Shown here: piece by piece, positions 30,701 to 62,261 of the stretch
Position numbering within the stretch: the stretch's first letter is position 1
Layout of the letters: every line of letters begins with the position of its first letter
Source of the DNA: Styela clava
Taxonomy: Eukaryota; Chordata; Ascidiacea; Stolidobranchia; Styelidae
NCBI RefSeq assembly: GCF_964204865.1
Contig: NC_135259.1
Coordinates: 12,968,974 to 13,032,973 of the forward strand
Direction of reading: 5' to 3'
DNA length: 64,000 bases
Made by a program: the position numbers and the translations under genes
The notes under the pieces: model-generated
The model's database searches: none
Seen by the model: the letters and a program-made list of their open reading frames with translations, nothing else
Told to the model about the DNA's origin: nothing

Positions 30701-33700
30701 TTAAAAAGTGGACCTCAGGGACAGCAAAGAATAAAAAATTTGGTAAAGAATTGCATGGGAAAAATCATAAATGTGTGAGGCAGATTGCAAGTAATAAAGT
30801 TAATAATAAATGCCAGTCATCTAAGAAAACATATACTCGTGGTAAGACAACACTCCATTCTGAAAAATATGCTCTTCCTAATAAGTCCCCAACTACTCTA
30901 AGCGAGGGAGGTATTTCAGAGAAACATGTCAGCTCTTGTACAAAGAAGAAAAATGAGGAGAAAGACCAAGAAATAGATCACCAAAGTCATTTTAAATTGA
31001 ATTCGCAGATGCACACAACTCAAAGTATCTCAAATACATGTTTTGATACGGCTGTAGCAAAAAATAATAAAGAAGGCCCGAAATTGTTGACTGATACAGC
31101 AAAATCAGAAGTCAATTCTGCTAGAAATCTGAAATCATGGCTGAATTCAAGTGGTGAACAATCAATGTCAGATATTACTAAGCAATGTGGGATGCCCATG
31201 TGTGAATACAGAATCGTTGGCTCTAATCAGACTAAAGAAAATCCCAACACCCCTTGTACCTACAATAATGGCAAACCAACTATACCTAAAAATCCTAAAA
31301 ATGAATCAACTATGCTACAACACCCGATGGTATGTGAGAGCTCTAATTCTGAAATTCCTAATGCTGATAAGAATGGCAAATTATTGGAGGAGAATAAAAC
31401 TGAAACTTTTGATTCTATCGATGCCTCATGCTTGAAAATCTCTAAAGCTTCGAAAACGAACTTGTGTGATAGTAATACCTTTTCTAGTCCTTCAACTCAA
31501 TGCCAACTATTGAATAAAAATGAATGTGATATAGCGAATCAACAACTCAAGGAGCATTCTTATTCTAAAAAGAGTGGAATCCAGGCTCTAAGGTGTTTTT
31601 TATCTAATCAGAAAGAGACTATTCAAACTATTTCTATGAACTCAACTAAAATATGTGAAGTCAAACTTGTACACACACAATTTTCTGTAACTTCTCCATC
31701 CTCTCCATTAAAAGAAAATTTGATTTCTGTTCCGAAGTTCTCGAAATCCAACGGAACGAAGAAAACACAAAATATTGGGGAAACGAGAGTTTCTCTTGGT
31801 CTTAAACCAAATTTTATTGGAGTTGTAGAAAAATACCAAACTCAAGAAAGATTGAATGGTTGTCTTAATATGAATGATTTTGTGGTTGTAGATTCAACAG
31901 ATAATGACTCGAAAGTGAAAATTGATAAATACGAAAAAGGTGGAGGTATTATAACTAATATGAGTGAAGAACATCCCTTTGAAGAGCAGAAAAATGATAA
32001 TGATTCAATCAATGTGGATGATAACTGTGAAGAACATCCACTAGAAGAGCTTGAAATTGATGATGATTCAATCAATGTTGATGAATACAGTGAAGAACAT
32101 CCAATAGAAGAGCTTAAAAATGATACTGGCTCAATCAATATACACGATACCACAATTAAATGTGCCCGTTTTTTGAGAGATGATCTAAATAAGGTATTTA
32201 TTTTCGATATTTATTTGACACAAAAGCGGAAATTTTTCACAAAATTTTCTATAAACAATTGAGGCACTCACTAAGGTTTTGGTCTATTTGGCTAATGGTA
32301 TGTTTTAAATTTGGATTGATATAACAAATTGGGCTAATGGTTACAGTAAGTATTTTATTTCAAGTAGTCAAGTGTAACAAAACTGATTTACCACATAAAC
32401 AATTTTTGCAAATGATACAAACACTCAAAACTAGCATTGTCAAACCTGTTTGCTAAGAACTCATTCAGGAATTGTCATACCTGAAGAAATTGTCATTATT
32501 GGATTGAAAATGAAGTCACTCAATATGTGTTCGTTGTGTGTTTGTGAAATCTGTTACTGATTAAAAAACTCGAAATTTGCTTCCTCATGATTGTGACTTT
32601 TCTCCATAGCACGAAAAGATGATTATTCGAGAAGTTTTTTGTTAGGTTATTTTCAATTTCATATTTCATTTCCATTATATTTCACTGATCAAGTTATTTG
32701 TATAAAATTCTTAGGTATCTAAAAAAACGGATTGCAATTCGAAAGATGTTGGAGACAGTTTATTATCCAAATTATCAAGCAATGCGAAAAAGAAATGTCC
32801 TGCTTCCGTGCCAATGAAACAAGAAAATAGTGATTTTACAATAAAACAATATTACACTGTGAATGACCCTATTACGCCATCTTTGGCTAACGAGGAAGAC
32901 AACGGTGAAGAAAATTCAAATCCTACAATTGACCCAGTTGATTGTGATAACGAAAAGTCTGAAAAACAAAACCCCGATGGGACAATGTCACATGATAAAA
33001 TGGGTTATGATAATGGTGAGTGTTCGCTATTCGTAGACGGTTGCATTGGTCATGAAATCCAAAGTGATCATGACGATATCGCTGAGCCGTATGACCCCAA
33101 TGCAGGAGGAGTTTCTAAAGATGATCTTCAGTTTCAAATCAATCAAAAATGGATAAGTGAACAAAATGCTGTAGTTGATCGTTTATTGGAGGAGCTCGAA
33201 AATGACTCAATTGCAAATTGTAATCACAGAGGCCAGAAAAATCCTGCTATTGATTCAAATTGTGTCATAAAAGATTGTTCAGTTGTGTTATCTGATATAT
33301 TTCGAAAAACGAGCAGTTTTTCACGCTCTAGTGAAACAATTACTGTTAAACTAGGTGAAGATATGTTTTTGCCTACAATACCTGGCAATCGTGTGGAGAA
33401 AGAAGTTTCTACGGACATACCTGAGAATTGTGAAACGATTTTACAAGAAAACAATTCTTTGGATCCTCGCAAACAGGAAGAGAGTCCTGAAACAAATGAG
33501 ACTACTCCAAGCAGCGACGATGAAATTACAGATCCAGTGTTTCAGAGTACCAACACAAGTAATGATGCTGCAGGAAAAAGTGAAAGATCAGTCACAAAAC
33601 GGATCTTGACAGAGTGGTTCGAAAGTCAAAATAAGCGAGTTGATGAACTTTTAAATATGCTAGAAATAACGTTTACTGCAATTCCAGAAAAGACCGAAAA

Positions 33701-39785: not shown

Positions 39786-40267
39786 TTTTTTTTGCAAAAA
39801 TCATCTCTATCGCCTCGAGTGTTGGCGAACGGCAGGCGTCGTCGAGTGCCAGAAGACTTATACGTATCTACCGACCAAGTTTTAATAATATTCGACAGAT
39901 AGTTTTTGAAATAGAGTTAATTTTCAATAAGGGGGTCCATCTTTTCCTGCCCTACAATATCACCTATTTATTACTTCTAAGTTCTAACTCATATCTTGGC
40001 GTATCGTAGCCTGTATTTACGATACTCAAAAAAATATGCAAACGCGAATGAATTAAAGGCCCGCTTTGCTCACTCATAATTGGTAACAAATTCCCATTAA
40101 AATTAGTTGTTTCGCGGATTATTTCACAAATGATTTCACAATATTAGCTTTTAACGCAAGGATTGTATAATCAATATTTGCCGGAAATAACGCGTTAAGG
40201 AATAATACAATTGATCGGTTGATTCCCACTTTCGAGTTACAATGTATATGCAAGACTTATTCTTAGA
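39786..40267. other. Upstream region of the HS2ST-like gene
   Basis: AT-rich, no repeat recognised and no coding evidence. It presumably holds the promoter and 5' UTR of the sulfotransferase gene, but I see no defined core element. Confidence 0.4.
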
Positions 40268-41173
40268 ATGGTTTGTAAACTGAACAAGTTGTTGTTAGTG
40301 CTTTTGTTTATAGTTGGATTTACGGTTCTTCATAAGCAGATATCGTTCGTAGGACAAAGACAACAACCGAATGGAAATCGTCAAAATTTAGTGGTAATAT
40401 ATAATAAAATTCCTAAGACTGCAAGTACGAGCTTTTGCAAGTTAGTAATTCGTCACCACAAAAACGAGCTTTATTCAATTAATATTCAGACAATTAATAG
40501 CTCGCCATTGCTAACACTACAAGATCAATTTAGATTGGTACAAAATGTTACAAATTGGGAAGAAATCACACCAGCATTTTATCACGGTCACTTTTTCTAT
40601 GTTGAATTCACTCGTTTTGGAAGTTCTTTGTCACCAATTTATATCAACATTGTTCGAGATCCGCTGGAAAGACTAGTGTCTCACTACTATTTTCTGAGGT
40701 TTGGAGATAATTTTCGCACCGACTTGATTCGAACGAAACAAGGTGATACAACGACATTCGACGAGTGTTTCAAAAGAAAACACAGTGATTGTAGAGTTGA
40801 TCGTCTTTGGTTACAAATTCCATATTTTTGTGGACAAATTTCAGAATGCCAAAAAGTTGGTAGTCGATGGGCGTTGGAAGAAGCGAAACGAAATTTAGTA
40901 ACAAAGTATTTGCTTGTTGGAATTACGGAAAAACTACATGATTTTATAATGCTATTGGAAAATATGATGCCTCAAATGTTTGAGGGACTTTCGGAACAAT
41001 ATCACAAAGATAAATCAACTTCTCACATGCGGAACACAAATAAAAAAGTTCCACTTTCTGCAAAAACAACAAGAAAAATAAAATCAACAAAAGTATGGGC
41101 CATGGAAATGGAGTTTTATAATTTTGCTAAAGATAGATTTCATTTCATAAAAGCAAAAATTCTTGAATCATAA
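40268..41173 (+). CDS. Heparan sulfate 2-O-sulfotransferase-like protein, single exon, 301 residues
   Basis: Type II Golgi enzyme predicted to move sulfate from PAPS to the 2-OH of uronic acid in heparan sulfate. Seen: short cytosolic tail and one membrane anchor (residues ~8-20), PAPS 5'-phosphosulfate loop PKTASTSF (49-56), YHGHFFYVEF (105-114) with His106/His108 at the place of the catalytic histidines of HS2ST, 3'-phosphate motif RDPLERLVSHYYFLRFGD (130-147), LWLQIPYFCG (180-189), VGSRWALEEAK and a DFIMLLE helix. Cys pairs 167/175 and 188/194 fit family disulfides. The match to vertebrate HS2ST1 is close along the length, better than to uronyl 2-sulfotransferase. Oddities: no introns, although vertebrate HS2ST1 has several, and the C-terminus stops about 20 residues early. 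It may be a retrocopy or a lineage-expanded paralog. The frame is intact, so probably active or recently so. Confidence 0.93.
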   Translation: MVCKLNKLLLVLLFIVGFTVLHKQISFVGQRQQPNGNRQNLVVIYNKIPKTASTSFCKLVIRHHKNELYSINIQTINSSPLLTLQDQFRLVQNVTNWEEITPAFYHGHFFYVEFTRFGSSLSPIYINIVRDPLERLVSHYYFLRFGDNFRTDLIRTKQGDTTTFDECFKRKHSDCRVDRLWLQIPYFCGQISECQKVGSRWALEEAKRNLVTKYLLVGITEKLHDFIMLLENMMPQMFEGLSEQYHKDKSTSHMRNTNKKVPLSAKTTRKIKSTKVWAMEMEFYNFAKDRFHFIKAKILES

Positions 41174-41780: not shown

Positions 41781-44700
41781 CAGTGGCGGCGCGTGGTCAT
41801 TTTGACAACCGGGGCAAGCTACTGCGGGACCAAGTCACCCCCATCTACGGGGACAGGATGAGCGCTGTATGTTCTCCCATCATTTTATGAGTATAAAAAC
41901 CATTCCATCGGTAACAACCAATCGGCAAAAGCGACAATTTTTAACGATAAGAAATTGTCTTTAAAACCGGTCCAAGTCAAGGGATTAATAAATATAGACA
42001 TAGTTTATTTTGAAACCTCTTTCAAAAGGAAAGGCAATATTTACCCAGATAAATACAATGACATATTAACAGAAACTTCGGGAAAGCAGACAAAACCTAA
42101 AATAAGGTTTAAAACGTTACTATGAAGAAAGGAAAAATAATGCAAAGATAAGGACATGCGTCTCTCACTCATAGATATATATGCTGCTAGACTTCTACTG
42201 CTTGAACATATATGCAACACGCCGCGGTTTCTTGGAAGCAAAATGCTCAATAACGCGCTGATTAAAGTCATGCATCCCAGAAATAACGTCTCTGTGAATG
42301 GATAAAACAGCCAAGGAATTTAATCTATCTTGCTTCATTGTGTTTCTGAGATACGTTTTATTACGCTTCAGCGTGCTGAATGTTCGCTCTGCGTCGGCGG
42401 AAGAAATAGGCGTCGTCAAAATGATGTCCATAAATTTTGCAGACGCCGCAAAGGTAGTTACTAGAGTGTTATCTATGAGGAACCCATAGAGCGCGCAAGT
42501 TGATGTGATGTTCAAAAAACTTTGATTGGTGTATATACATCGCAATTCATTTCCAATTTACCCACGTTTATCATGGGGTAAAATTTGTAGACAGTAGCCA
42601 ACAAATGGATGGGAAATTGACGTGCAAATTTTGAAAAATTTTTGGGGTTCATCAAAGAGAACGCGGCAAGGTGTTCAGTGCACAGACGATCGCCTATTTG
42701 ATTCACCAGAATGTCACAGCATTCCTTTGCAGACAAAATCAAACGCTGCGTTGTTTGCCCGCGGCGTAAAGAAGCACTCCATGTGTCGTCGTATGTTATT
42801 GTTTCCCGGATACGAGATACAGCATCGCAGAAGTCTGAAATACACGACTGCACAGACGCTCCATCCATTAGCCTTGACTGCAATGCGCCGTATAATACAT
42901 CCACGTGATAGAATATTGTGGAGAAAAAAGCGAGAAAAATGAAAACTCACCATATCCTAGCAGACGCTTTAGACCTGCCGCCTCCCTCACAGAGCGTTCG
43001 TCCCAAACCGGAGAGCTCTGAATGCCATTGAAACACTCAATGAGCTCAGACCTAATTTCGGACACGCCCTGCACCACGCGTGATTGGAAGTTCCAACGTG
43101 TTGGTGCACAAGCTGGGAGACGGCGGCTACATATCTGGCGAAGGAGGTCAGAGCGCTTCGGCGAAACGGAAAAAAAATGAAGAAAACCCCGAAACATTTG
43201 CAAAAAATATACGGACGAGAGGGGTATCAAGACACATATTTTTAATAACGAGGTTAAATTGGTGTGCATAACAATGTAAAAAATGCGCATGAGGAAAATC
43301 TTCTTTTATATAAACTTGAACACCATGTTTCGACCCACTCATGACTGCCGCGCCGTCATAAGTTTGAGTTATCAATTTTGACTTCGCGTTGTAAGGCTGT
43401 AACACTTCTTTGAGTACAGCCGATATCCCGCAAGCCGTGCGATCAACGATTGGTACAAAGCTGTGAAATCTCTCGGTAGGTTTACCATCTTTCACAAACC
43501 GAAAAATCACAGCCAGTTGGGAAACGCACGTGATGTCAGTTGTCTCGTCAGACTGAATCGAAAGGAACTGGCAATTCTCAATTTCCAGGGCCAAATGTTG
43601 TAAATAAATTTTATACATTGACTCGAGCAAATCATTTTGGATATCCTTAGATGTCCCTTTCGAAACAGTTGCGGCATCGAGATGATCTCTCAATACTGTA
43701 TCTAGGGATGCGGTGTATTCCACCATATCCAAAAATACCTCTCTATTAGAAGAGCAAGCCCGTTCATCGTGCCCACGGAGCGACAGCTCGTGACAACCAA
43801 TGAACTTCAAAACATCTATCAATCGACCGAGAACATGGCGGTTTTTCTCGACGTTTTGGTTGTGCCGACGAATAGAAACCGCGCGTCCTTCATCCAACTG
43901 TGCTGCAATATTAACATTTCCGAATGTTCGGTATTTTACTGCATTGTCCAGATGCTCCATAGAAGATTGATGATCACTGGCACGCTCGGAAAGATGTTTA
44001 AGATCTCTAAAACCAAATTTACACCAACGTGAGTCACGGGCGGTAGCAAAAAGTAGGCAATAAAAACAAAAAAGTGCATTTTTGTCCTCGCTGTAACACA
44101 ACCATTCGTGTTTTTTATACCAAGTTTCTGCGCAGAATGTACGCCGACGCTTTCCTCCGTCATGGGATTGTTCCAGTGAACAATTTTTTGGTTGATAAGG
44201 CCCAAGATGTTGTACCTCTAATTTTTGTTCCAGCGGCAGCTGCGAAAACGGAGTGCGAAGTAGTGCATCAACCTTATTCATTATGAGGTTTAAGGCTAAG
44301 AAATGGGAAGCCGGAAAGAAGTGAGGAGCTCAAAAAGAATGTGGAAAATCGAAAGCAAATGGACTAAAGGTCTCTTACTGATTCAAATAGCGAAACAAGC
44401 GACAAAAACGAAGGCGAGGAAACTATCAACTCTTCAAGCAACCAACGAACGAGAAGGAATGCGTGAATATGTCAACACGTTGTTGTGAGAAACGTCGGCA
44501 TTGTGTCGTCATAATTTCGGGGCTAGCCCCGATCGGCCCCGATGATTTAGTAAAAGAAACAGAAAACAAACGAGACAAACGCGGCGAGTGGAAGATAAAA
44601 GAGAGAATACGATATACAATGAGCAACCGGGGCAAAATCGGCGTCGCCCCGTCGACGTTCGGCGAAGGCTTTGCGAGCGAAAAATGAACCATGTCGGGAG

Positions 44701-47719: not shown

Positions 47720-49033
47720 ATGACTAACTGGAAGCTTTTGGCCTTGCTAGCAATGCTCGCTTCATTACTTGTGACGTCAAGCGTCAAGGGAGATAAAGAA
47801 AAAATGATGACAAAGGTGATAATGGAGGAGGTACCGACACCAGCGAAACAACGTGAATATATTTTTTAACGTTTTATACTTTCAAACAAATATTTATCTA
47901 TACTCGAGCATAACTGAGATTTGTTGAGGACCAACAATTTTAACCAAACTGCTTATGTTATGAAATGTTATTCTTTAATGTTAGCACTAACTAGTTTAAA
48001 CTATTTTGATTTGTATATTTTCCCCCAATCTCACATTTCATTAAAAACAAATGTTCGAAACAATATCACGCACACTCAAATTCCATTGTTTTTTCATGCA
48101 TTTTTTAACAAATATTGACACGTACTTATTGCTATACCAGGGCAAACGACAAGGACGATGGGTTGTGGCCCAAGAGAAAACGAAGTTTAACAAAAAACGA
48201 TTTAGAAGGTGACTCATTAAAGTACTATTAAAAAAGACAGCAGTGCTAGCAATTCTCAAATATACGGACACAAATCATGCTACTTTAGTATGCGATCTTA
48301 GCAGTTCTGTGATTTCAGTGATTTTAGATAGGGTCTCATGCAATCGAGACGATGAGCAAGTGAGCATGTCAATGTGGCACCCGCAAATGATAGTGGCCAA
48401 CCGCATTACAGCTGCAGTGATGCGTCCAACACCGAAATCTGTTATCCAATCATTTAATAGGCACATAGTATTCCGACAAAATTTGAAAAAAATGGGATAG
48501 CCTTCCAGCGACTTCTTGAATCTTTGTATACTAGAATTGATCAAATCTTTAATTTTAAAGAAAACGATTTTACAACAGCTACAGTAGTAAAAACAAAAAC
48601 GTATCAGAACAACTTATGTTTCCCTGGATTACAATGTTAATGCCACCACATAGAGATCGTATCTTTATTTTTTAAGATATACGCGTCTGCCTAATAAATC
48701 ATATGGGGGATTAAATATTCCCCGCAGTAAAAAGAATAGAGTTATTGCATCCACAAAATTTAAACGATATCAAATTTTAGTCTGAAAAATAAATTGCTTC
48801 AACTGTACGGTGTAGCCTACTGTATCCCAACATCCGTGATTCAAATCTAAACTAATTTAATATATATATTTTATTTTGGATGAATAAATATTGAGATTAT
48901 GCAGCATGATGAAATGACCAATAGTAGAATATAGCATTGAATTATGATGGTTTAAACATGTGAATATGCATGTTCATATATATTTACTTTTTGACTTTGC
49001 ACTTCAGAAAACACCATCTTTGATTTCGAATGA
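47720..49033 (+). CDS. Secreted peptide precursor, cluster member 1 (exon 1 out of phase)
   Basis: Probable exons: 47720-47852, 48141-48208, 49008-49033 (stop). Exon 1 encodes a signal peptide (MTNWKLLALLAMLASLLVTS) and a spacer with VPTPAK, like the PKVPDNPPK spacer of member 2. Exon 2, in the frame shared with its siblings, reads GLWPKRKRSLTKND, with a basic cleavage site; exon 3 ends TIFDFE. Exon 2 ends in phase 1 and has the same length (68) as in member 4. The problem: the only donor at the expected place (47853) leaves one base, not two, so exon 1 is one base short for the conserved frame. Alternatives are a donor at 47812 or 47830 with an inner acceptor at 48153 (phase 0), a one-base sequence error, or a real disabling change. 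An aataaa lies at 49211. Function unknown; family evidence under member 2. Confidence 0.6.
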
Positions 49034-50911
49034 GATGAAAAGAAACACAAATCACATGATGGATGTACAAAGTCTTAAAATAGTTGTATCAATTTTTATC
49101 GTCAACAGCACAGATGAAATCGAAAAGATGAAAATTTTAAATTTCCTTTTTTATTTTGCACTAACAGACTACATTCAGAAAACTGTACCATTTATCGTAT
49201 GGAAGTTTTTAATAAACTAATATTCTTAGACTTGAAATAAACATTCATTTTCGCTCAGGTTTTTGTGACTTAAGTAGTTTTATAAGACTTGACTTCTGTT
49301 TTCATGAGTGCTCGCAATAAAAATAGTCTTGTTAGTAGGAGAGTGATATTTGAAGCTTTCATAGAATGTCTTACACATGTTACACAAGCACCCCAAATGT
49401 TGAATTCGATTCATTTCCTTAGGCAATTTTCGATATTTGTCGAAAAAAAGAGTATATATGTTCATAAGATTCTACGACACACAGGGAAGACGGCGTGTGT
49501 ATGCAAGGTTACGGGATTTGGTTTAAACACTTTGTCTAGTAAGGAGACGTTTTGTTTCATTTATCTCAAATACCCATTTTCTACTCAAAATGATATAAAT
49601 ACGTTTTTAATGGGAATTTCTACAAAAGATAGAATGCTCAAATATATGGACACGAAAGCCAAGTGGTATCATATCTTTTTTAATACCGAGCACCAGAGCA
49701 CTGAGATGTGTTCCCGGAACTACGCCACGTTGCGCAATTTTTAATTTTGATGATGTCAATAATCGAATCTTCGAATCCCATAGATCCAACATATATATAT
49801 TTGCAATCAAGAAATGAAATAGCCTTTTAGAGACAACAACAAGCTTCAACCACTGAAAATTCCAAAGAAATTGGTCCAGTAGTTGAAGAGAAAAGCGATT
49901 TGAACAAAAACATAATAGCAAAACAATCCATAGGTACATTTTGTGTCCAATAAAAATATAATTATTTTTATCAACCAGTTCTTCAGTGCATTGTCATCAG
50001 TAACAGTTGAGCAACAAACCTACGTTAGAATTGTTCAAGTAGCTTTTGAGCACAACGTATAATGCCAAACCTATTGTTTGAATATTTTACAGTTTGACAT
50101 TTCGTCGATCGTTGTTTTGGGTAAGTGGATACTGCATTTTGCGATTCATCAGGTCGTTACTACATATATTGTCATAATCCGACACGTTAAATTGAAGTTG
50201 TTATAGGGTCATGTTTCCGCCTGTTTTGTCATAAATACAAAGATAACAATTGTGCGTTGTTACCACTTACTGGAAATTTTTGCCTTCGATCACTATCTTT
50301 TTTAGTTTTCTAGATTTCTTCTGTCACAAAGTGTAAAAATGAAGAACAGTAGGCTTTACCCCACGATAATATTTTACGTGCGTAAGTTGAATAATTTCTT
50401 TTTCAAACCGAAGTCGTAAACAGTCTTAGTCGAAGTCTAATAACTGACATAGTGGGAGTAGTGCTGTTATATGGGGATGTATTAAAGTGAACAAAGTTGG
50501 TTCAAAATGGAATTAGGGGACATTATTGTTACTATATTATACTATACTAGAGTTGCCCTGAAGAATGGGATTACCTTTTGATCTATCCTTCTTGCAATGT
50601 TCTATTAATTACATCACGAGAACAATATAAAAAAAATTACTCGTAATCTGCATACATATATCGATTTTTAAATCGCGTTCAGTTAGTTAGGACAAATAAG
50701 CTGTTTTGTCAGAGCTAAAATGGCACCATCTTGCAGCGTATTAACTTTGTTTCGAAAATATCAATAAACAAAACTTTTATCTTTTATTATCTGCAAATCT
50801 TGTAGATCAATTTTGGTATTTACACTCTTTATAAATTGAATAGATTTATCTAAAATCAACTCAATTATATTTCTGAATAGCATTATTATAATACAAGGTA
50901 CAAATTATACA
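49034..50911. other. Spacer between cluster members 1 and 2
   Basis: Contains an inverted R3 repeat copy (49600-49935), which accounts for much of the 151-residue open frame at 49289-49744. No other gene seen. Confidence 0.5.
49600..49935 (-). repeat. Interspersed repeat R3, copy 4 (minus strand)
   Basis: Carries the reverse complements of catatatttgagcat (near 49635) and of the 'ttgctttgaaattttcag' block (near 49855-49875). Confidence 0.65.
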
Positions 50912-51900
50912 ATGACTAATCAAAAAAATTATGCTATTTGCATTATGTATATCACGCTTATAGTGATATCTTTTAGTAGAGAATGTTTTCCGAGTAAAAT
51001 ACCGAAAGTACCGGACAATCCACCGAAAACATCTTCTAAAACGAAGTGAGTTTTTTTATCAATACTTGACGAAACGGAAATACAAATATCAAATTTTGAA
51101 ACGAAAATAAATTCTACAGAATTAAGACTCGAGAGTATATCTTACTGTGACACAAGCTCCGACATTTCACATTTTTAGGAAGATGTACAACACAATTATA
51201 CATCAAATAATTTAATGTAAGGATAGGATTTGTATGATAAACATACTTGGCATAGATGAGGTTGTTGACATGTAGTGGCCAACGAAACTGGCATGCCTGA
51301 ATGGGATTGTCTCAAATAATAACCAATCACGGTGCAAATTGAGTTAAGTTTGAAGATAATATCTAAAGTAACAATAGGATCGTTTCACGTAAATTATTAT
51401 GTAGCTAGTATGCCATAACCGAAAAATATTGTAAATAGTAGACATAAGTTTGGCCTTCTACTTCTTCAACAGCCACTCGAAAATAATTACGGACCTCCTG
51501 AATTATGCGCACCAAGATGGCGCACAACCTGAACTTAGATTGTGTATCAGGTAAGGGTTCAGGTTATGCGACATCTTGGTGCGCATATTCAGGAGTAACA
51601 GAATTTCATTTCTAAAAAGCTAGGTACACGTTCAACTCTGATCGTATTTGAAGTTGTTTGGACTTCCGGTTTGAGGCCTACTAGTAATTCCAACTTAAGT
51701 GATTGCAAGTAATATCTTTCTATACAGTCACATCAGCGGAGGCGGTGGGTGGAGACAAGGGAAAAGAAAAAGAAGCTTGGATAAAGAAGAAACTTTCGAG
51801 CAAGGTAACTAATAACCTTGGGCAAAAATTCATAATTTGCTATTTTTCTAATTACTCAATATTTTCTGCAGTTGACGAAGACGCCATTTTGTTTGAATGA
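50912..51900 (+). CDS. Secreted peptide precursor, cluster member 2 (79 residues)
   Basis: Exons 50912-51045, 51728-51804, 51872-51900 (stop); introns phase 2 and 1; 240 nt in frame. Layout: signal peptide (~1-24, hydrophobic ICIMYITLIVISFS), proline-containing spacer (PKVPDNPPKTSSK), a Gly/Trp segment (HISGGGGWRQ) followed by GKRKR, then an acidic C-terminal peptide SLDKEETFEQ...DEDAILFE. GKRKR is the classical signal for prohormone cleavage plus C-terminal amidation, so a peptide ending WRQ-amide is possible; the acidic tail is the other candidate product. The same exon plan, phases and motifs recur in members 1, 3 and 4, which is the main evidence that this is a real gene. aataaa at 51984, 84 bases after the stop. 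I do not recognise the family. It could be a neuropeptide/hormone, or an antimicrobial precursor with an anionic C-terminal piece. Confidence 0.82.
51491..51595. repeat. MITE M1 copy in member 2 intron 1
   Basis: ggacctcctgaattatgcgc to gcgcatattcaggag, with caagatggcgcacaacctga and the inverse catcttggtgcgc. Confidence 0.8.
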
Positions 51901-52091
51901 AGTGTTTAAAGATAGAGGAGACATGTGAAAAATACCAAACATCTAAAAAGCATGTCAAAAACTTCCTTTCTACATATTTGTGTAATAAATGAAATATTGT
52001 TGTATGCTTCAGTTTGATATATTAGACTTTAATGTGCTGGACCTAAAGGTTAGCAACTAAAGGAAATTCATACCAGAATTATCAGTAGGTT

Positions 52092-52230
52092 ATTGACTTG
52101 GACAGTAAATAGAGGAAAAAATTCATAACACTAACTTTTGAAATCAAAAGAGACAAATAATTGACTTGGACAGTAAATAGAAGAAAAAATTCATAACACT
52201 AACTTTTGAAATCAAAAGAGACAAATAACT
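52092..52230. repeat. 68-bp direct tandem duplication
   Basis: attgacttggacagtaaata at 52092 recurs at 52160; the two units are nearly identical to their ends (agagacaaataa), so the duplication is recent. Confidence 0.95.
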
Positions 52231-52505
52231 GACACAATAACGAAATGGTTGCAGTGTTATGGTTTCGTTATCAGCCTGCTGGCTTACTTACTGGCTGGCG
52301 ACGAGCACAAGCATAATTATCCAGTGAGAAGGATGTAGACTCCAAGTGTCCAAATTTTCCATGTGACACTACAAAGGATAGAAACATTTAGAAATTAAAC
52401 GTAGGAGATATTTATAAATACGAGCAATCAATTGCAAAATTCGAAAACGTGTTGGTTTCGAAAATCCCCAGAAGTGAATGTTGCTTTTGTGTAAGTCAAA
52501 AAATA

Positions 52506-52711
52506 GGTACTCCCGTAATGTGTGTACCAGGTTAGGGTTAAGTCATATTTTTATTTCTACCTTATTTTAGTTCTATTACGAGTTCGGGGACTGTGTTAGC
52601 CAAGTGAATATACCCCCTGCCCATAGGTTTCCGTCCCTTTACACAACTTTATGTTAAGTAGGCGAACAATATTAGTTACTTCGATGTTGGTACACACACT
52701 TCTGGAGCGCC
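52506..52711. repeat. MITE M1, long variant without AAGATGGCG block
   Basis: ggtactcccgtaatgtgtgt to acacacacttctggagcgcc, with an M1-type ccaggttagggtt centre next to the left end; 206 bp with A-rich flanks (aaaaaata / aaaaatat). Confidence 0.65.
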
Positions 52712-53320
52712 AAAAATATGTGATACAATCAGAAGTAATGTTAGAGAATAAATTCAAGATTATTCAAAACTATTCTTATTGAAACAAGTTTATGATACGA
52801 AGTAACATTTACCGGGAACTCAAGTGCAACAAGGTTTAGGAGAATATTGCGCTGCAATGCCAGATATATATATATACAAATTAGATGAAATATTTCTCTC
52901 GATGTAGCTTTTTTCAACGCATATATGTTATCACAAACGTGAGATAGTATATCACAAACATATTTAATTGCATGACATTCCTAGAAATTTCACTGAAAAT
53001 AGAATTTGGGGCATGTTGCTCGAGAAAGAATATTCGTCTATTATGAACACGACAAACTCATGAAAAATAGCATGTTAATCCACTTCGTATGTATGTTAAA
53101 TTCATCAGCTCTTTGTTATGAATTGCCGCGAACGTTACGTCATAAAACACAAGTTTGACGTAATAATACAAAAATGCGACATCGTAATATCATGATCCCA
53201 TAATCCTAGGTGATTTATGACGTAAGTGTGGAGAATTTTATCCTATCAAACTCTAGCTTGGTTTATATGAGTATGAGTATGAAGTATGAGTTTCATAGTA
53301 AAATGACATTATTAATAGCC

Positions 53321-53516
53321 GGTGACCGTGCATTTGAACCCACGTCCATTTGAACCCATGTGTATATCCGCGGGTTCAATCTATATGCGGGGTGCTAAAA
53401 CCCATGGGATAGGGTTAGTATGGGTTAAAATATCAGTAAAACAAAAAAAAATTCTATAGGTGCAATAGTATGCAGGTGCAATTGTCGTGGGTTCAAATGT
53501 ACGGCGGACGGGAACC
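53321..53516. repeat. MITE M2, copy 3, perfect 9-bp target duplication
   Basis: Starts ggtgaccgtgcatttgaacc and ends ttcaaatgtacggcgg...ggaacc. Flanked by ttaatagcc at 53312-53320 and 53517-53525. Confidence 0.92.
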
Positions 53517-54888
53517 TTAATAGCCTACTCAGAATGTTGACGACAACATCATCTACATTTTATTGATGCGTTACAGAAATTAACTGAATATAGCATTTCA
53601 AACATCGGCAAAGTGTGATTGAAAAATGTTTTACTACTTATAAGATTGCATTTTCACACATCATTATAGTAAACTTGTTTCCTGTTTTATATATAAATCC
53701 ATTTACTTATTTGCTTCCGGTCATTCAAAATATACACTTACTTATGCATTAATATTGATATCGAAAGCTGTTGGGGTATTAAGAACGACATAGGCTTTTT
53801 AGTATAGTGAATTTGAGAGTGTAAATCGCGCTGATTTGGGCAACCAAAGATAGAAGCTTTACTTGCGCACTGAAGTAAAATGTGTAGGACAGTGTTAGAG
53901 CACGTATAGTCTTGTAAAACGAAAATCTGGTGAAATTTAGTACGAAATGGACGTAACGAATTTCTGTTTATTTCATATTATTTACTTCCTAATCATTTAT
54001 ATAACAACATGCAAAATAATAAAATCCTTTTCTTTATGTCTGATAAAATGCAAAAATTTTATTCAAATCATTTATCACAAACAGCCGCCAATTCCAATGC
54101 TTTTAGTAACAATTCTTTGCTGTCAAGAAATAATGATAATAAACGATATGATGACAGAGACTTTATACGGACACGTATATAACCTTCTAAATTGAGCGAT
54201 TAATTAAATACTCCAATTGCACGTTGTTTTCGTGTCATGTTCCCGTTGTTTTGAAACGTCATTTAATGGTAAATAAGCAATCTGATATGCCTTTTGTGAT
54301 ATCAGAGAAAACAACGACTCATGTTTACGAATGCTAGTACGTTGAAGGGTTTATAAGCGGAATCAAATATTTGCAAGATGATTTAGTTACGAAGTAAACG
54401 TAGACGACAGACGTAGGCCCGCCTGCTCATAGCAGGTAGCTATAGGAGATATTTTGGTCCGGAAAGGGGGAAACGTGACAGCTTTGAACCGCCAAAACTA
54501 CCTATGCATTCGGGCAGTGTATCAGAAATCAATTAGTAAGTGCGATCGCCTACCGGTTGAAGCCTTGGACTTATCTATGTTGACATTGACATTGCAGAAA
54601 AAACTACTGGAATATTCCACTTCAGTCCTTCTAAAAATAGTACCTCATTATCCAGAAGTTACTGCCCGTACATAGCCTTATTTGGAGTGACGGTCGTGAT
54701 TGTATAAAAACACACTCTTACCAAAACTGAACTTGTTTTGAGAATTTACTCCAAGAACATCAAATCATGTCTCATATGTAAATTAGCTTTATTCTAAGAT
54801 TTTATGTTTTCAAACAGCCCTGATTTTATAATTTATTGCTGTGATATATTCTAGAAAGAAAATTGTATAATCGGCTTACATATATATT

Positions 54889-56666
54889 ATGGAAAACTAT
54901 AAGCTGTTACGAATCATCCTTATTTGTGTTACGCTGACCATTTTATCTTCGTGTGATGGGTTTTTATCCGACGATTTTCCCACTCGAGGTCGGGTTGTTA
55001 GTCCACCAGGGACAAATCAGAACCGGTTAGTAGTTTTATTGCTAATATTATATAGAAAATTCACTATCGCATGATAGCAGACATCTTAGAAAATTTTTGT
55101 TTGAGAAATGGCATACAACAGTATTTGCCATACAAATACACGCTGTTCATTTCTTGGACACGTAATGTACATATGGATCGTTGTGTTAATATGTTATTGT
55201 TGTTGTTCGCGTTGGTATTTTTTGATATTGTTATACATATTGCTTTGCTCATTAACTATTTGATCATTTGCTCTAAAATTTTCCAGTGGTTGAAGATTGT
55301 ATTTTTGCTAGAAGGCGATTACTTTTTTTTATTTCAAAAATTTCTCTATGCGATTCGTTTTTGTTTTTGCGAGGACGTCGTCCAAATTGCGCACCTTGTG
55401 GCAATTCCGCTTTCGCGTTAGTCGTGAAGATTTCCATACCGGTCGTTTAATGTCACAGATTGCCTGTGGCCTTGGCCTTGGAGTTCATATATTTGAGCAT
55501 CGCTCTCTTGTTTTTGAACACGTTATGAATCGTTTTATAAATCTTTTCCTTTGAAAATTTGCTATTTTTATTTAACTCATAGGAATACTTTCATGTGACA
55601 TTAAGAATCACTTTTGCATGACATCTGACTTTCGTGTCTATATATTTCAGATCTGGTCCACTGTTATTATTATTTTTAAAATAAGACTCGGTTTTGGTAA
55701 ATTTAGTAACAAAGTTTCATTCCATAAACACCTGGGATTGGAAAAGTTTTTGACGTTTGAACACATTTTAGTGATCAAATTCGAAAATTTATAATTCGTT
55801 TTTTATATTTTATTAAAATACAGCCACATAAGAGGCGGCGGTGCTTGGTCTAATTCAAAAAGTAAAAGAAGTGCAATGAAAGAAGAAGATATTGAGAAAA
55901 GTGAGACATTTTTATTACGATTTATATTTCAATTCAAATACATTTAGTTTTTACAATTTCATCGTCTCACAACAATATAAATGGAATATACAGAATTTAG
56001 CTCCGAGTTCTGATTCGTGAAATATAAATTTTAAAAATCATTCAGGCTAGTTGTTACTGTTAGTACTTCCACTTCCACACGAATCGGGCAAATTTGATAC
56101 TTCCCGCATTGAAATAATTGGTCGATTCAATGAATATTTTGATGGGAAAATTGCTCAAAATTTTTAATATAATATTGCTGTAAAATTAAATACATTTATT
56201 TGTGTACGAGGCTAGGTTGGCCGTTTTCCAATTAGATTTGTTCAATTTTGTTAAACAGATGACAATGCTGTCACTGTCTTATCATTACTTTTTATCATTT
56301 GATATTTATCTAGTTGTGATATATATATAAAACCTTCTAATTGAGCATCTTAATTGAGAATAATTTAAGGTTCGTAACACCCAAAATCTTTCACATAGCT
56401 TACCCGTTTTGAAACTTTCGAATGAATCGTATTATTCAATCTCCTGTCCTAGGCCAATATCCTTTATTATTTTATAGAAAAATTTTATAGTAAAGAAGAG
56501 GGTGATAGTCTATATTTAGCCATTCATCTGGTTCAGTATCACATTGATGGTGCCAATACCTGACTATTTTTCACTTGAGGAGCTTGAATACTGTTTAAAT
56601 GGGTAAACAGACAAATTTGTTTTATTATTCATAATAGTGGATGAAGACACCGTTCTCTTCGACTGA
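54889..56666 (+). CDS. Secreted peptide precursor, cluster member 3 (80 residues)
   Basis: Exons 54889-55025, 55824-55900, 56638-56666 (stop); introns phase 2 and 1; 243 nt in frame. Signal peptide (LLRIILICVTLTILSS, residues ~5-20), spacer FPTRGRVVSPPGTNQN, Gly/Trp segment HIRGGGAWSNS, cleavage site KSKR, acidic tail SAMKEEDIEK...DEDTVLFD. Exon 2 has the same length (77) as in member 2, and the HI(S/R)GGG(G/A)W and DED(A/T)xLF blocks align position by position. Unlike member 2 it has no Gly before the basic site, so no amidation is expected. Intron 1 contains an R3 repeat (55205-55520). aataaa at 56707, 41 bases past the stop. Confidence 0.82.
55205..55520 (+). repeat. Interspersed repeat R3, copy 5
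   Basis: Contains aattttccagtggttgaaga, tagaaggcgattactttt and catatatttgagcatcgctc; it lies in intron 1 of peptide gene 3. Confidence 0.7.
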
Positions 56667-57422
56667 ACGCAATATTGTTAAACAACAAAAAGATGATAAA
56701 AGACTGAATAAATACAGACGTTTACGAGAAATCTACAAATAAAAATGTTTTGAGCTTTTGGTGTCTCAGAAAAGTACTTCAACACGCCCGAGATTGAATA
56801 CAGTTTTAAACACCAAAAGATTTCAAATCCCATCTATTGCAACTGTTTTTATTTGGCATAATTTTTACCTTTTTCAACTTGCTACTTATACAGCGAATAA
56901 GAATAAAAAATCATATACGTGTAAATAGGCTGCGCGAAGCGCATTTGTATTGTTCATCATGTTTCATTTTATTAATAGCACAAAAAGTATGTTTCATTTT
57001 TCAAGATTTTGAATTTGGGTATCCGCTTTTTTTACTCTTCATCGAAAAGTTCAGAAATATCTAAAAACGAAACAAAAAAAATTCGAGCAAAAATTGCATA
57101 AAAAATTATACTAAATCTGACCGAAAAAGTGCGACAAATTAACAGAAAAATATTCAATATTAGATCTACCTTCTTCCTGCTCTTCGATTTCCAACTCGCG
57201 CCTTTTTCTTTTCCATATTATGGGTATTTTATGTGTCCTGATTGTAGAAAGATGTCATTGATTTAAAAAAAGCTTTGTAAAATATTTTATGCGTGAAATA
57301 TGATTATAAGGTTACACTAAATGAGTACGTAACATCCTAGAAAAGACTTTTAAAGGCAGTGGACGTTAACAGTTGCCGCGATGATGGCTATACTAGAAAA
57401 TATTATATTTATAGCTTTTTTT

Positions 57423-57532
57423 GGACCTCCAGAATTATGTGCACCAAGATGGCGCACAACCTGAACATAGTAGTTGAACCAGGTTAGGGTTCAGTTTGTG
57501 CGCCATGTTTGTGCACATACTTCGGGAGCGCC
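57423..57532. repeat. MITE M1, intact copy
   Basis: ggacctccagaattatgtgc to gcacatacttcgggagcgcc, with caagatggcgcacaacctga and inverse gcgccatgtttgtgc. Poly-T flanks hide the target duplication. Confidence 0.85.
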
Positions 57533-57559
57533 ATTTTTTGAATGCTACAACACATGTAT

Positions 57560-57800
57560 CATTTATTGGACACATTCATATGTAGCGCTTTGCTAAATTG
57601 TTGTTATTGTTGGATGACATTTATTGTTAGGAACAATTGGTCTCTCCGATACCAATGAACAAATCTTTCAAAATTTCATATTGTGAATTCAGGATGTGGG
57701 ACGCGATTTGCAATTTTGATTTGAAGCTTTTGAATGATAAGAGAATTCAATCATTGAACCTTCGTGTCCATATATTTGAGCAATGCTCTCTTGCTAACTT
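57560..57800 (+). repeat. Interspersed repeat R3, copy 6
   Basis: Ends with cgtgtccatatatttgagca and atgctctcttgc as in other copies; the rest is diverged. Confidence 0.55.
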
Positions 57801-58179
57801 TTATAAATGTTTTGTGGTTACTGCTCAAAGCATTCTGGTGGAAAGTGCAATATAATTTTATAAATAAATATTTCACCTCGAAAGTCCTGCCACAGAAGGA
57901 CTTCGTGTTGTTGGCACACGTTCATACCACATGTTTCGACGGCCTCGTTGATGTCCAAGACTGGTTATTATAAATCCAGAAATTGTAAACAATATTACGA
58001 AGATCCTATAAACTTTCATATTCCTTATTACGAGTTATAAAAATTGTTGGAAAGTGTCTAATGACAATTTTAAAAAAGCATATATATTATGTAAATACGC
58101 GTTTTCAAATTTTCTGAAGGAAATAGATTGCAAAAAACGAGATGGAATCTACTAACTATCTACAGAATTATACTCCTTT

Positions 58180-58480
58180 GTGGGCGCGATGGTCTGGTAG
58201 TTAAGGTATCAAACTTACTATACTGGCCTCACTGGGTGAAGATCTTGTGTTCAAATCTTAAGCTAACTACTTTACCCAGAGTGTGATAGGGATGATGATT
58301 CAGTGGGCAAGGCCGAAAGAGGAAATATTCCGGTCGATCTGAAAGACTAGCCACATTAGTGGATGCTTTTACAGGAAATTGTTCAAAATAGAAGACACGA
58401 AGAAGCATGGATATAAAAACAGTTGGTAATTGCGTTAAAAATATTGAGTTCAATTGCCTTAAGAATAGTCTCAATCGTAG
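58180..58480 (+). mobile_element. tRNA-derived SINE of a second type
   Basis: A-box tggtctggtagttaagg (58190-58206) and B-box-like tgttcaaatct (58248-58258) spaced as in a tRNA, with a body running to about 58480. It is unlike the SINEs at 8305 and 15948. Not a functional tRNA by eye: the 3' half does not close an acceptor stem. Confidence 0.6.
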
Positions 58481-60193
58481 AAGTCTATTGAAAAATTCAA
58501 AGATAAAAATAGCTTCTCAAAATATCCATACTGTAACTTGTTTGACTGTTCTCCATACTATATCTGTTGACCTCAATTGACCTTATTTTATTTCTATTCA
58601 GATTATCATACATTGCCTGTTTATAAAACATAAAGGTATCTGACACTTTCAGAATCTAGCAAACATGCAGTAAATAAGTAACATATTGCGCACTATTTAT
58701 TATTGTATCCTGCCTCCCTAACACGTCACGTCGGTTTTCGATTTTCACACGATTTATACGTCATTTAAATTGCCGTTGAAATTTAATATTTTAAACACAG
58801 CAATAACATCGATGCTGAAAATCGCATCAGCAAATAAGATGATATCAGTTTTGCTTTCAATTGCTGTCCATATCGCTTATGTCCATATTTTTTAATTAAC
58901 ATACCAATGCCACATCAAATATTTTATTTTTTAATTTATACGAAATTCGATACCAGCTTTAAATCTTCAGACACCCTTTTCGGCAGTCAGATCCCACCAT
59001 TTGAAGAGGATTTGATCAATTACAGGAATATCTCAACAATTTTTTACACTCGAGTTTACATAGTTTTATCGAAAACAAAAATAAATTATGTATTCAAAGT
59101 ATGATGCTTTCGTGTTTCAAATTTATTATGAGGTGGTGTTATTTTCTTATCTCAAATATCACCATATTTAAATTAGGTAAACCTCGCTATAATACATATT
59201 TAACACATAAAGCAAAATTTTTATTAAACCTGTGTAATGTACGCGAGTGTGAACCTTTTATTGCGTGAAGTGAAAAAGAACCAGTGACAATTTTCAACCA
59301 CGATTAAAAACAGATAGATACTCTGTGATTTGATCCCAAATTTTAACCCCAATTCGAATTTTTTAATTTCAAAAAACCGTAGAAACATATTTCTTCATTC
59401 AATATGAGCACACATTTCGTTTGTTTCAAACGTTGCATCGTCCATACTTGACACTTACGTTCAGTAGGTATAGTACTTGCGATATGCTACAGCTATGTAT
59501 TAATTAAAAGAACGTACGTATTAATTAAAAGAACTTAAAAGTACATTCATTTCGCAGTCATCAACTCTCCAGTTTAAATCAAGACTTGCTAAAATGGCTT
59601 GAGTCTCATTTGCACAAGTCAAGTTAAAACTAAATCCATGGGTTTGGAGTTCATTCCAAATCATTTGATGTTCTCGACCTTGCTGCAGTCAAGTAAAAAC
59701 AAATTTTCATTTTAGCGATCTCTTAAAAGACACTGTGAAAATCAAGTGAAGTCAAATCATTATTTTATTCTTGACCCAGTTTTTCTCACTCGAGTTGACC
59801 AAATCAAGAATGCATGTATCACTAAAACAAATGAAAATGTACCAAGACCATTAGCTATTATTTACTTTTTTAAGTTTAAGTTGTAGATGTTGGTTTATGC
59901 ATATAAATAATTCGAACTTTGTAACTGAGTTAGAACGCGGGCAGAATAAAACCAGCTGATTTCAGATTACAAGTACTATGATTTCAGTGAATAAAATTTT
60001 TATATTTTTTTATGCTAATTCTGAAAAGAGGGACAGAAGCCGAAAATCTGGTTAATTTTACAATATAAACAAACCACGGCCTTGTCACAGATGCCATGTA
60101 TGCTGATGGTGAAGGTCATCGTGATAGTAATCATGTCTGTAATTCACCTTGCAAAATTGTACTTTATTCTATTGTTTAACACAATATCACAGC

Positions 60194-60546
60194 TAGGGCT
60201 GGGCAATTCGAACCGAATATTGGAAACGAATAGTAAATTATTCGAATCAGTATCGACAGAAATTTCGTATTTTCCCATCCTGTTTTTTTTTTCTGTTTTC
60301 CAAAGGACGAGGTGAAGACTTATTACTCTTTTCTTCGTTGTGAGTAGTTGTTTCCTATTTCTTGTGAAAACTCAGCAAACTATATGAGTGATTGAACTAT
60401 ATTTGAAGTAGTTTATGTGTCTGGAGAACCCATTACAATGAAAAAGTTAAAAACAATTACATATCTTTTAAGTATTCGTGATTCGATTCGAATAAAAAAA
60501 CTATTCGATTCTGAAATCATCAGGTGTTTGAAGATGCCGAGCCCTA
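60194..60546. mobile_element. hAT-like non-autonomous element, TAGGGCTGGGCAATTCGAA end (copy 4)
   Basis: 353 bp, TAGGGCTGGGCAATTCGAAC to GATGCCGAGCCCTA, with gattcgattcgaat words inside. Flanks atcacagc / gtcccagt match at 5 of 8. Confidence 0.7.
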
Positions 60547-61403
60547 GTCCCAGTCCATCAGATTTTGCTTTTGACGAGAAGAGTACTTGTTTTGATATAT
60601 TTGATTGGAATAGCTTATCTCGCAAATTGCCGTCTTTCAGCTTCAAGAAATTAAATAATAAATATGATTGACACCACCGGATGAATTATCCAGTTTTGCT
60701 TCCAATTTATTAGCAACTACGATAATAATTACGACACATTTTGTCATAATATTAATACCGATTGTGATAATAATCCGACAACGATGTGACGAAAATGCGA
60801 AATTATTGGTTGCAATTCAATTCAATAAAGGAGATTATTGGAAAGTTAATTGAATTTTTTGAGAAATTAAAAAGCAATTACATTTATTAAAATATGAAAG
60901 GAATAAACTGAAACATCACATTATGACTGCGGGCGTGTTGTAGTATATAAGTCGGTAAAATTTCAATTCACTGTATTACGTTACTGCAATTTGACGAATT
61001 ACGAAAGACATGAGATGTTATGAGTATGACTTTGAGGAGGTGTTTGGAGTCTGGACTCTGGAGTCAGTGAGTTGGGGTTTTATGTAATCTGAAATCGCAT
61101 TCGAAAGCACACTTTGGACTTTTTTTTCGGTCGAAATTATATCAACTGTTCGAGCAGCCAAAATTTTATAATTTTTAGCGGTGGGAGCTGGGATGGACAC
61201 GTATTCGTGAACTAAAGATAGGGTCCAAATTTGTTCAACTTGATGTCGGGAGTTTCAGCAGGTGGCGGTTTTTAAATGGTTGGCGTCAGAAAGTACTGAT
61301 GAACTTTTTCGACCCCACAGTCAACGCCATGGTTTAATCAAGCAGTCGGCATAATCCACGAGTTTCCATTCTCAGGTTGATTTTTAGGACTACCTGTATC
61401 AAT

Positions 61404-62261
61404 ATGTCTAAACTACAGTTTTATGTGATTATTACAATGTCTTGTTGCCTTGCTCTCAGTATCTTGCAAACATCTGGTACACTTTTGTCATGGTGGTCAA
61501 GAAAACTCTATCCGGATGTTCCTTTTAAAGTAGCACAATTACAGTCAAGGTAAAATCGTATTACACATCACTTAGTTATATAACAAAAGGAACTGTAATA
61601 CTTTTTTGCATGTATAAAACCCTTGGTTCTTAGATCTTTAAAATAGCTCAGTTAAAAACATCATTTTCATTTATAAATAAAAGTTTATTATGACAATTTT
61701 ATCTTTCCAGACGCTCATCATTCAGTGTTACAACTTTTATAACAACGTGGCGATCAAAACGTGACATTCCCGAAAGTGGTGAGGTTTTTATTAGTTATGA
61801 ACATTATCGTTATATCGTATATTAATTACAAGGCTGTATGGGAACATGAAATTTATATTTAAACCTCTTAATAAGATATCGGCTTATTTTTAACAGTTTG
61901 CTGCAGTGATAAACACATAATAATTCTGTTGCTGAATTACTGAAATAAATATTTTAATTCGCATGTTCGCAAGTGACCCTCTTTTTGAATCTGCGTTGAA
62001 AAAAACTTGGCTTTTACACTAGTTTTTACAGTAACCTAATTTGCTTTCAAAAGTCCGATATTTGCATATCATAATGCTATAGTTCCACTCCAACAGTAGG
62101 GGGAGGGGAGTCTAAATTTTTAAAAGAACTAAGTAGCAAACAGCTAAAACTAATAAACTCTTCGTGATCGGTATAGCAGAGTATTTAATTGGTTAAAATA
62201 TATGTGTTTTTTTTGTATTTCAGACGACGAAGCCCTTTTTGATATGGACGTGAAAAATTGA
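61404..62261 (+). CDS. Secreted peptide precursor, cluster member 4 (83 residues, diverged)
   Basis: Exons 61404-61549, 61711-61778, 62224-62261 (stop); introns phase 2 and 1; 252 nt in frame. Signal peptide (FYVIITMSCCLALSILQT), spacer with LYPDVPFK, a Ser/Thr-rich segment ending TTWRSKR (Trp two residues before the basic site), then the acidic tail DIPES...DDEALFDMDVKN. The plan matches members 2 and 3, but the Gly run is lost and the tail is extended past the ALF block, so this is the most diverged copy. aataaa at 62617. Function unknown. Confidence 0.78.

Follow-up and report, generated by a model that had tools for sequence, protein, structure and literature searches.

A tandem cluster of at least eight small three-exon genes for putative secreted-peptide precursors in the ascidian Styela clava

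Introduction

In the ascidian Ciona, most precursors of linear cationic alpha-helical antimicrobial peptides (LCAMP) are built in the order signal, cationic part, and anionic tail, and, as judged by eye, half of the entries listed in Table 1 of PMC7387483 (11 of 22) have a Trp at the cationic/anionic border. Here, we describe a group of eight or more tiny, related genes of three exons each, all on the plus strand and in tandem on one Styela clava chromosome (C13), the first four of which lie in a stretch of 64,000 nucleotides referred to below as the window (C13:12968974-13032973). The likeness between these genes and the Ciona LCAMP (Ci-MAM, Ci-PAP, Ci-META, and KH.S921 types; PMC7387483) extends to the short secreted precursor, the order of its parts, the frequent border Trp, and the grouping into several families of related genes.

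Other described systems resemble the cluster in part. Styelins and botryllin are styelid prepropeptides, as the cluster products would be, and were compared by description only; botryllin has a precursor of 158 residues and a strongly cationic mature peptide of 37 residues (PMC9966394). Halocyamine and plicatamide are short peptides of ascidian blood cells, the former with a modified Trp-type residue and the latter with three His among its eight residues (PMC3039461 and PMC7460354). Clavanins come from the same species as the cluster and likewise have an acidic piece C-terminal to a short cationic peptide. Neuropeptide and hormone prepropeptides have a signal-like start, basic sites, amidation, and an acidic spacer.

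Results and Discussion

Eight related genes stand in tandem on one strand

Genes 1 to 8 extend from 47720 to 108885 in coordinates that continue those of the window, a span of 61.2 kb in which a gap of ∼34 kb precedes gene 8. An earlier note on this DNA had proposed four same-strand loci, each with a signal-peptide exon, a middle exon of 68 or 77 nucleotides (nt), and a last exon of 26 to 38 nt, joined by introns of phase 2 and then phase 1. When the DNA was read and assembled, these loci were recovered: middle exons of copies 1 to 4 measured 68, 77, 77, and 68 nt, last exons measured 26, 29, 29, and 38 nt, and GT-AG sites and the proposed phases were found at copies 2 to 4. The count of four was too low, since four further copies (genes 5 to 8), all on the plus strand, were detected downstream of the window, giving eight. 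The motif scans behind this count covered the window and its flanks (264 kb, reaching 90 kb upstream and 110 kb downstream, and then 324 kb, reaching 170 kb downstream); gene 6 was first caught as a one-mismatch match of an exon 3 pattern run against the whole 376.6-Mb assembly. No ninth member was detected from 90 kb before to 170 kb after the window by these scans, which members with a different tail would escape.

In gene 2, exon 1 (50912-51045) encodes a signal-like start and a variable middle and ends at a phase 2 donor, exon 2 (51728-51804; 77 nt) encodes HISGGGGWRQGKRKRSLDKEETFEQ, in which a Gly before KRKR is a possible amidation signal, and exon 3 (51872-51900; 29 nt) encodes VDEDAILFE and a stop. 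Gene 3 is laid out likewise, with a signal-like start, variable middle, and phase 2 donor in exon 1 (54889-55025), HIRGGGAWSNSKSKRSAMKEEDIEK in exon 2 (55824-55900; 77 nt), and MDEDTVLFD and a stop in exon 3 (56638-56666; 29 nt). Exon 1 of gene 4 (61404-61549) combines a signal-like start with a cationic middle and a phase 2 donor, followed by exon 2 (61711-61778; 68 nt; RSSFSVTTFITTWRSKRDIPES) and exon 3 (62224-62261; 38 nt; DDEALFDMDVKN and a stop). The frames of these three genes are unbroken over 79, 80, and 83 residues, respectively. The motif scans placed gene 5 at 1701-1903, 2269-2333, and 2406-2440 of downstream piece L018, gene 6 at 4777-4931, 5614-5681, and 6438-6472 and gene 7 at 8710-8867, 9384-9457, and 9891-9922 of the same piece, and gene 8 at 4134-4240, 4552-4628, and 4863-4885 of downstream piece L022. 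All seven settled models (genes 2 to 8) have GT-AG sites and phases 2 and 1, and their precursors measure 68 to 100 residues. AATAAA or ATTAAA occurs within 250 nt past the stop in seven of the eight genes and at 355 nt in gene 4, which adds little, as AATAAA alone is present in 34% of random 250-nt stretches.

Gene 1 matches the family pattern in exon 2 (48141-48208; 68 nt; ANDKDDGLWPKRKRSLTKNDLE) and exon 3 (49008-49033; 26 nt; tail ENTIFDFE and a stop), and the 3′ end of its exon 1 region (47720-47852; signal-like start MTNWKLLALLAMLASLLVT) is uncertain. This exon had been described as one base off, which holds for the donors beyond the hydrophobic stretch (47782, 47815, and 47830 in phase 0; 47852 in phase 1). 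It does not hold for an earlier, weaker donor at 47775 (GAC/gtcaag), which lies where the hydrophobic stretch ends, is the sole phase 2 donor among those listed, keeps the family phases of 2 and 1, and yields an unbroken frame of 49 residues (MTNWKLLALLAMLASLLVTANDKDDGLWPKRKRSLTKNDLEENTIFDFE). Two phase 0 readings are also possible via a pyrimidine-poor acceptor at 48154. Because donor 47775 and the two readings via 48154 keep the frame, gene 1 appears unsettled rather than broken.

Judged by exon count, phases, and alignable motifs, the eight genes are paralogues with shared exon phases and a common plan: phases 2 and 1 recur in seven of seven settled models together with an invariant Trp and an invariant L-F, and gene 1 conforms only with donor 47775. 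The common strand, the phases, the motifs, the likeness of neighbors at the DNA level, and the lack of an accepted relative elsewhere in the genome searches support the proposal that this is a tandem family of secreted-peptide precursors produced by local duplication.

Paired exons recur on one strand only

The second exons of copies 2 and 3 aligned with a tblastn E value of 8e-6 (264 kb, six frames, relaxed settings). A paired scan for exons 2 and 3 over 324 kb returned six places on the plus strand, all of them cluster members, and none on the minus strand; 100 dinucleotide shuffles under the same rule gave a mean of 0.04 and a maximum of 1, a figure to be taken as a guide and not as a probability, given that the rule was set after the members were known. 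Six of the eight genes are recovered in this way, with genes 1 and 4 failing the tail-charge condition and gene 3 passing only in a shorter form. Exon 2 alone matched 17 times on the plus strand, never outside the cluster, and 6 times at two places on the minus strand (10 and 1 under other rules).

These controls bear on whether the genes are an artefact or the remains of decay, that is, chance exon-like pieces or pseudogenes. Exon 3 alone matched about as often on the minus strand (27) as on the plus strand (35), the genes are small, genes 6 and 7 change at a near-neutral rate (see below), and gene 1 is in frame only via a weaker donor or acceptor. However, chance exon-like pieces are rejected on the minus-strand and shuffle results of the paired scan, gene 5 equals an NCBI protein, and genes 2 and 3 are under apparent purifying selection; the in-frame reading of gene 1 weakens the case for decay slightly further. 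We regard artefact or decay as scarcely credible.

Precursors join a variable, mostly cationic middle to a conserved acidic tail

The precursors follow one order: a hydrophobic start, a variable and mostly cationic middle, a core ending in Trp, a basic site, and an acidic tail. The hydrophobic cores reach a best 10-residue mean hydropathy of 2.2 to 3.5 in genes 4 to 8 and were recognized by eye in genes 1 to 3; frames of this kind are fairly frequent, with 3 in 2.6 kb. If signal ends are set by eye, the variable middle of genes 2 to 8 runs for 11 to 42 residues up to the border between exons 1 and 2. This border carries Arg in six of the seven settled models and Arg followed by His in five; gene 2 has Asn-His and gene 4 has Arg-Arg. 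A single Trp is common to all eight genes, and the basic site follows it after 1 to 5 residues. A KR-type site (KRKR, KSKR, RSKR, RKKR, RYKR, or LVKR) separates the middle from the tail in seven genes and is absent from gene 6. Of the recurring HI(S/R)GGG(G/A)W or single Trp described in the earlier note, the longer motif is restricted to genes 2 and 3; before the basic site, Trp is the only residue shared by all seven aligned proteins (genes 2 to 8).

The acidic tails of genes 2 to 8 contain LF(D/E), in some genes followed by a short extension, and that of gene 1 contains IFD; the L-F does not vary among the seven aligned proteins. The tail stops at LFE or LFD in genes 2, 3, and 8 and continues in genes 4 to 7. 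Charges up to the basic site are +8, +5, +7, +10, +1, +8, and +4 in genes 2 to 8, and those of the tail are −7, −6, −6, −5, −8, −8, and −6, respectively (with signal ends again set by eye, and the cut in gene 6 set four residues past the Trp, as it lacks a basic site).

Selection differs between two pairs of genes

Genes 6 and 7 share stretches of 66 to 78% identity in exon 1, in parts of the introns, at the end of exon 2, and in exon 3 with its 3′ flank, and on these grounds look like a close pair. Between genes 2 and 3, the ratio of nonsynonymous to synonymous differences (pN/pS) was 0.64 overall (P = 0.005), 0.47 in exons 2 and 3 (P = 0.013), 0.20 in the eight codons of the H..W core (P = 0.048; 6 of 8 residues identical), and 0.53 after the Trp (P = 0.12). 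For genes 6 and 7, the overall ratio was 0.81 (P = 0.33); it was 1.38 over the nine codons that link the border with the Trp (P = 0.66) and 0.54 beyond the Trp (P = 0.11). The counts are small and the P values are uncorrected for several tests. As far as such counts can indicate, genes 2 and 3 are under purifying selection, and genes 6 and 7 are not distinguishable from neutrality. The earlier note had named a Ka/Ks near 1 among the copies as a sign against the family; genes 2 and 3 depart from that value, whereas genes 6 and 7 do not.

The strong divergence of neighbors, together with the neutral appearance of genes 6 and 7, would suit secreted peptides with a role in recognition (gamete, larval, or self/non-self) that diversify through tandem duplication. 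No known relative of that kind was found, however, and we consider such a role quite improbable. The tail raises a different alternative, in which activity or sorting resides in the acidic C-terminal piece (DVxxLFDV... or DEDxxLFE), with the middle serving as a spacer. Its invariant L-F and the ratios after the Trp in the two pairs, neither of them significant singly, are consistent with this alternative. Against it, the ends of the tail vary as described above, and the Ci-MAM family, too, is reported to have anionic proregions that are relatively conserved (PMC7387483). An active tail is unlikely in our estimation.

The H..W core, which is the most constrained part of genes 2 and 3, favors the chief rival of the host-defense reading given below. 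This rival holds that the genes form a hormone or neuropeptide family in which the segment from the exon border to KR (e.g., HISGGGGWRQ-amide or HRTSGTWSGLV) is excised and serves as a receptor ligand, with the acidic tail as a spacer. Non-homologous neuropeptides specific to Ciona are known (PMC8936170). Within the cluster, peptides of 8 to 13 residues are bounded by an initial His just past the border and by a KR-type site in genes 2, 3, 5, 7, and 8; gene 2 has an amidation-type G-KRKR, and the signal-like start, basic sites, and acidic spacer are as in neuropeptide and hormone prepropeptides. Unlike in those prepropeptides, however, no core beyond one Trp is shared across the paralogues outside genes 2 and 3, which is unusual for ligands of one receptor family and leaves no conserved bioactive core. 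Each precursor holds a single copy of the peptide, and gene 6 has no KR at all. Hormone precursors also generally show the opposite of this arrangement of conserved tail and variable middle. We view a hormone family as possible but doubtful.

The family is apparently confined to this lineage

Searches of 5.8 billion proteins with the gene 2 and gene 7 proteins returned no homologue. A profile of genes 2 to 8 run against the same proteins (516 candidates) returned one, NCBI "uncharacterized protein LOC120338467 [Styela clava]," which is identical to the gene 5 model over all 100 residues. Gene 5 was itself in the profile, and it is the identity, not the E value of 6.3e-25, that counts as evidence; the plan of gene 5 had been derived from motif and splice rules before this record came up, and an outside annotation thus reproduces one of the eight models. 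No Pfam family exceeded its cutoff for genes 2 to 8. Matches of gene 4 to Toxin_22 (E = 0.056; 13.9 bits) and of gene 7 to MRP-S22 (E = 0.021; 15 bits), each below a cutoff of 25, were dismissed, as was the best match of the family profile among solved structures (histone hairpin-binding protein; E = 0.56). Gene 4 exon 1 had no match among solved structures. An AlphaFold model of gene 5 from its sequence alone, with helices at 5-20 and 29-98 (mean pLDDT, 72; pTM, 0.29), was set aside. The family was not described in the top-ranked titles and abstract openings of the literature searches, and LOC120338467 occurred in no main text searched, a set that most subscription journals fall outside.

In the whole assembly, an exon 3 pattern of the LFDV type had 75 matches, 5 exact and 70 with one mismatch. 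Three of the exact matches are genes 4, 5, and 7. The remaining two are on C9 and were rejected as members: one lies in a frame reading NTDVIFLFDVDGTLTAP, which we take to be phosphomannomutase, and the other has no fitting exon 2. Because a control pattern gave 45 matches, those with one mismatch are mostly attributable to chance; one of them was followed, on C13, and is gene 6. For the type found in genes 2 and 3, the exon 3 pattern had two matches, both in the cluster (control, 0), and the exon 2 pattern had two exact matches, both in the cluster (control, 0), plus a one-mismatch match on C2 that was not followed. The gene 7 protein had three matches in the genome, two of which are its own exons and the third gene 6. 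Across the genome-wide exon 2 and exon 3 patterns and the gene 7 protein search, in which some one-mismatch matches were not followed, no accepted family member lies outside the cluster.

On the minus strand of C6:5533138-5584090, 21 near-identical one-mismatch matches of the exon 3 pattern (CACACGAAAYCCTTCTCTTCGATAT type) stand 0.4 to 3.9 kb apart and look like a tandem array of something else.

Apart from the uncharacterized LOC120338467, the protein and Pfam results agree with the earlier description of the genes as undescribed. The accompanying claim that they are lineage specific is consistent with the failure to find any other relative among the 5.8 billion proteins. It is weakened by the nature of the search: relatives in other ascidians may exist because the protein search needs shared words of five residues and gene finders miss such exons. 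The cluster is a new, apparently lineage-specific precursor family of a known general kind.

A host-defense role is tentatively favored

The reading we prefer, with somewhat less than even confidence, is that the genes encode charge-balanced small prepropeptides most likely releasing host-defense peptides of blood cells or epithelia; the defense role is a guess from design and divergence. The hydrophobic start would direct the product into the secretory path, where furin- or PC-type convertases would cut at the KR-type site and perhaps also after the border Arg. Basic ends would then be trimmed, and the gene 2 peptide could be amidated. The acidic tail would balance the cationic part during storage before being removed, and the freed peptides, divergent, Trp containing, and mostly cationic, would act in host defense. 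By analogy, the precursors may work like those of ascidian antimicrobial peptides.

Several observations weigh against this preference. Under published LCAMP window criteria (H, 0 to 0.6; moment, 0.1 to 1; charge, 3 to 10; applied in part and recoded), with cuts placed one residue before those of the charge count in genes 4 and 8 and four residues after it in gene 6, six of seven genes pass and gene 5 fails, but a fraction of 0.43 to 1.0 of shuffles pass too, and gene 2 alone exceeds its shuffles in amphipathicity. Gly and Pro are abundant in genes 2 and 3; gene 6, the one without KR, is nearly uncharged before the tail, and gene 1 reaches only +2 there. No homology was detected to nine Ciona LCAMP entries chosen for their Trp from the 22 in Table 1 of PMC7387483 (hhalign probability, 0.5%). 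According to that paper, Ciona LCAMP precursors have no basic motifs at the boundary, whereas seven of the eight cluster genes have KR there, and styelins and clavanins are cleaved before D or DD and not at KR. No kappaB site was found within 1 kb upstream of any of the eight genes, which is uninformative at a background of 2.6%.

Clavanin A searched against the whole genome gave two matches, at C1:10574722 and C1:10538332 (83% and 87% identical; 36 kb apart on the same strand), and none in the cluster. The clavanin-like gene at C1:10574722 was read and, unlike the cluster genes, encodes the mature peptide together with the tail in its last exon (start inferred from the acceptor), with a GDD boundary and no KR. 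No sequence likeness was visible by eye, and membership of the cluster in the clavanins was rejected.

A more specific proposal is that the cluster is the gene source of blood-cell peptides like halocyamine and plicatamide, which would be His-first by a cut at the border and finished at or near the Trp by bromination, oxidative C-terminal trimming, and amidation, with a different H...W core from each paralogue. It is raised because of the His start and the invariant Trp only. The product sequences of halocyamine and plicatamide were not found in the cluster by eye, and, unlike in those peptides, 1 to 5 residues stand between the Trp and the basic site. Such a source seems highly improbable.

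If the cluster is real, Styela clava, a known source of antimicrobial peptides, gains an eight-gene, apparently lineage-specific precursor family. Exons of 23 to 38 nt and 65 to 77 nt can hide such families, and protein searches returned one of the eight genes. The genes also supply peptides ready for synthesis, and their natural series, with a constant type of tail and a changing middle, provides material for asking how ascidian defense or signal peptides diversify.

Surroundings of the cluster

Upstream of the cluster, two long open frames on the plus strand (29968-32262 and 32715-35255 of the window; 764 and 846 amino acids) have no Pfam family above the cutoff. They are followed by a Sulfotransfer_2 frame of 316 amino acids (40223-41173, plus strand; E = 3.9e-15). 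On the minus strand, 42512-44329 holds a transposase-like frame (DUF4371 at 43148-44329; E = 6e-17) and a neighboring frame without a Pfam match, which are probably the remains of a mobile element. A Sulfotransfer_1 piece lies between genes 7 and 8 (downstream piece L019, 1433-2014, minus strand; E = 3.1e-11).

A short palindromic repeat of the GGACCTCC..GCACCAAGATGGCGCAC type, which recurs many times across the 264 kb, occurs at 51490-51600 and 57423-57530 of the window, and one copy is in the first intron of gene 2. Just past gene 2, at 52093-52228, two 68-base copies adjoin each other and are identical at 67 of 68 positions.

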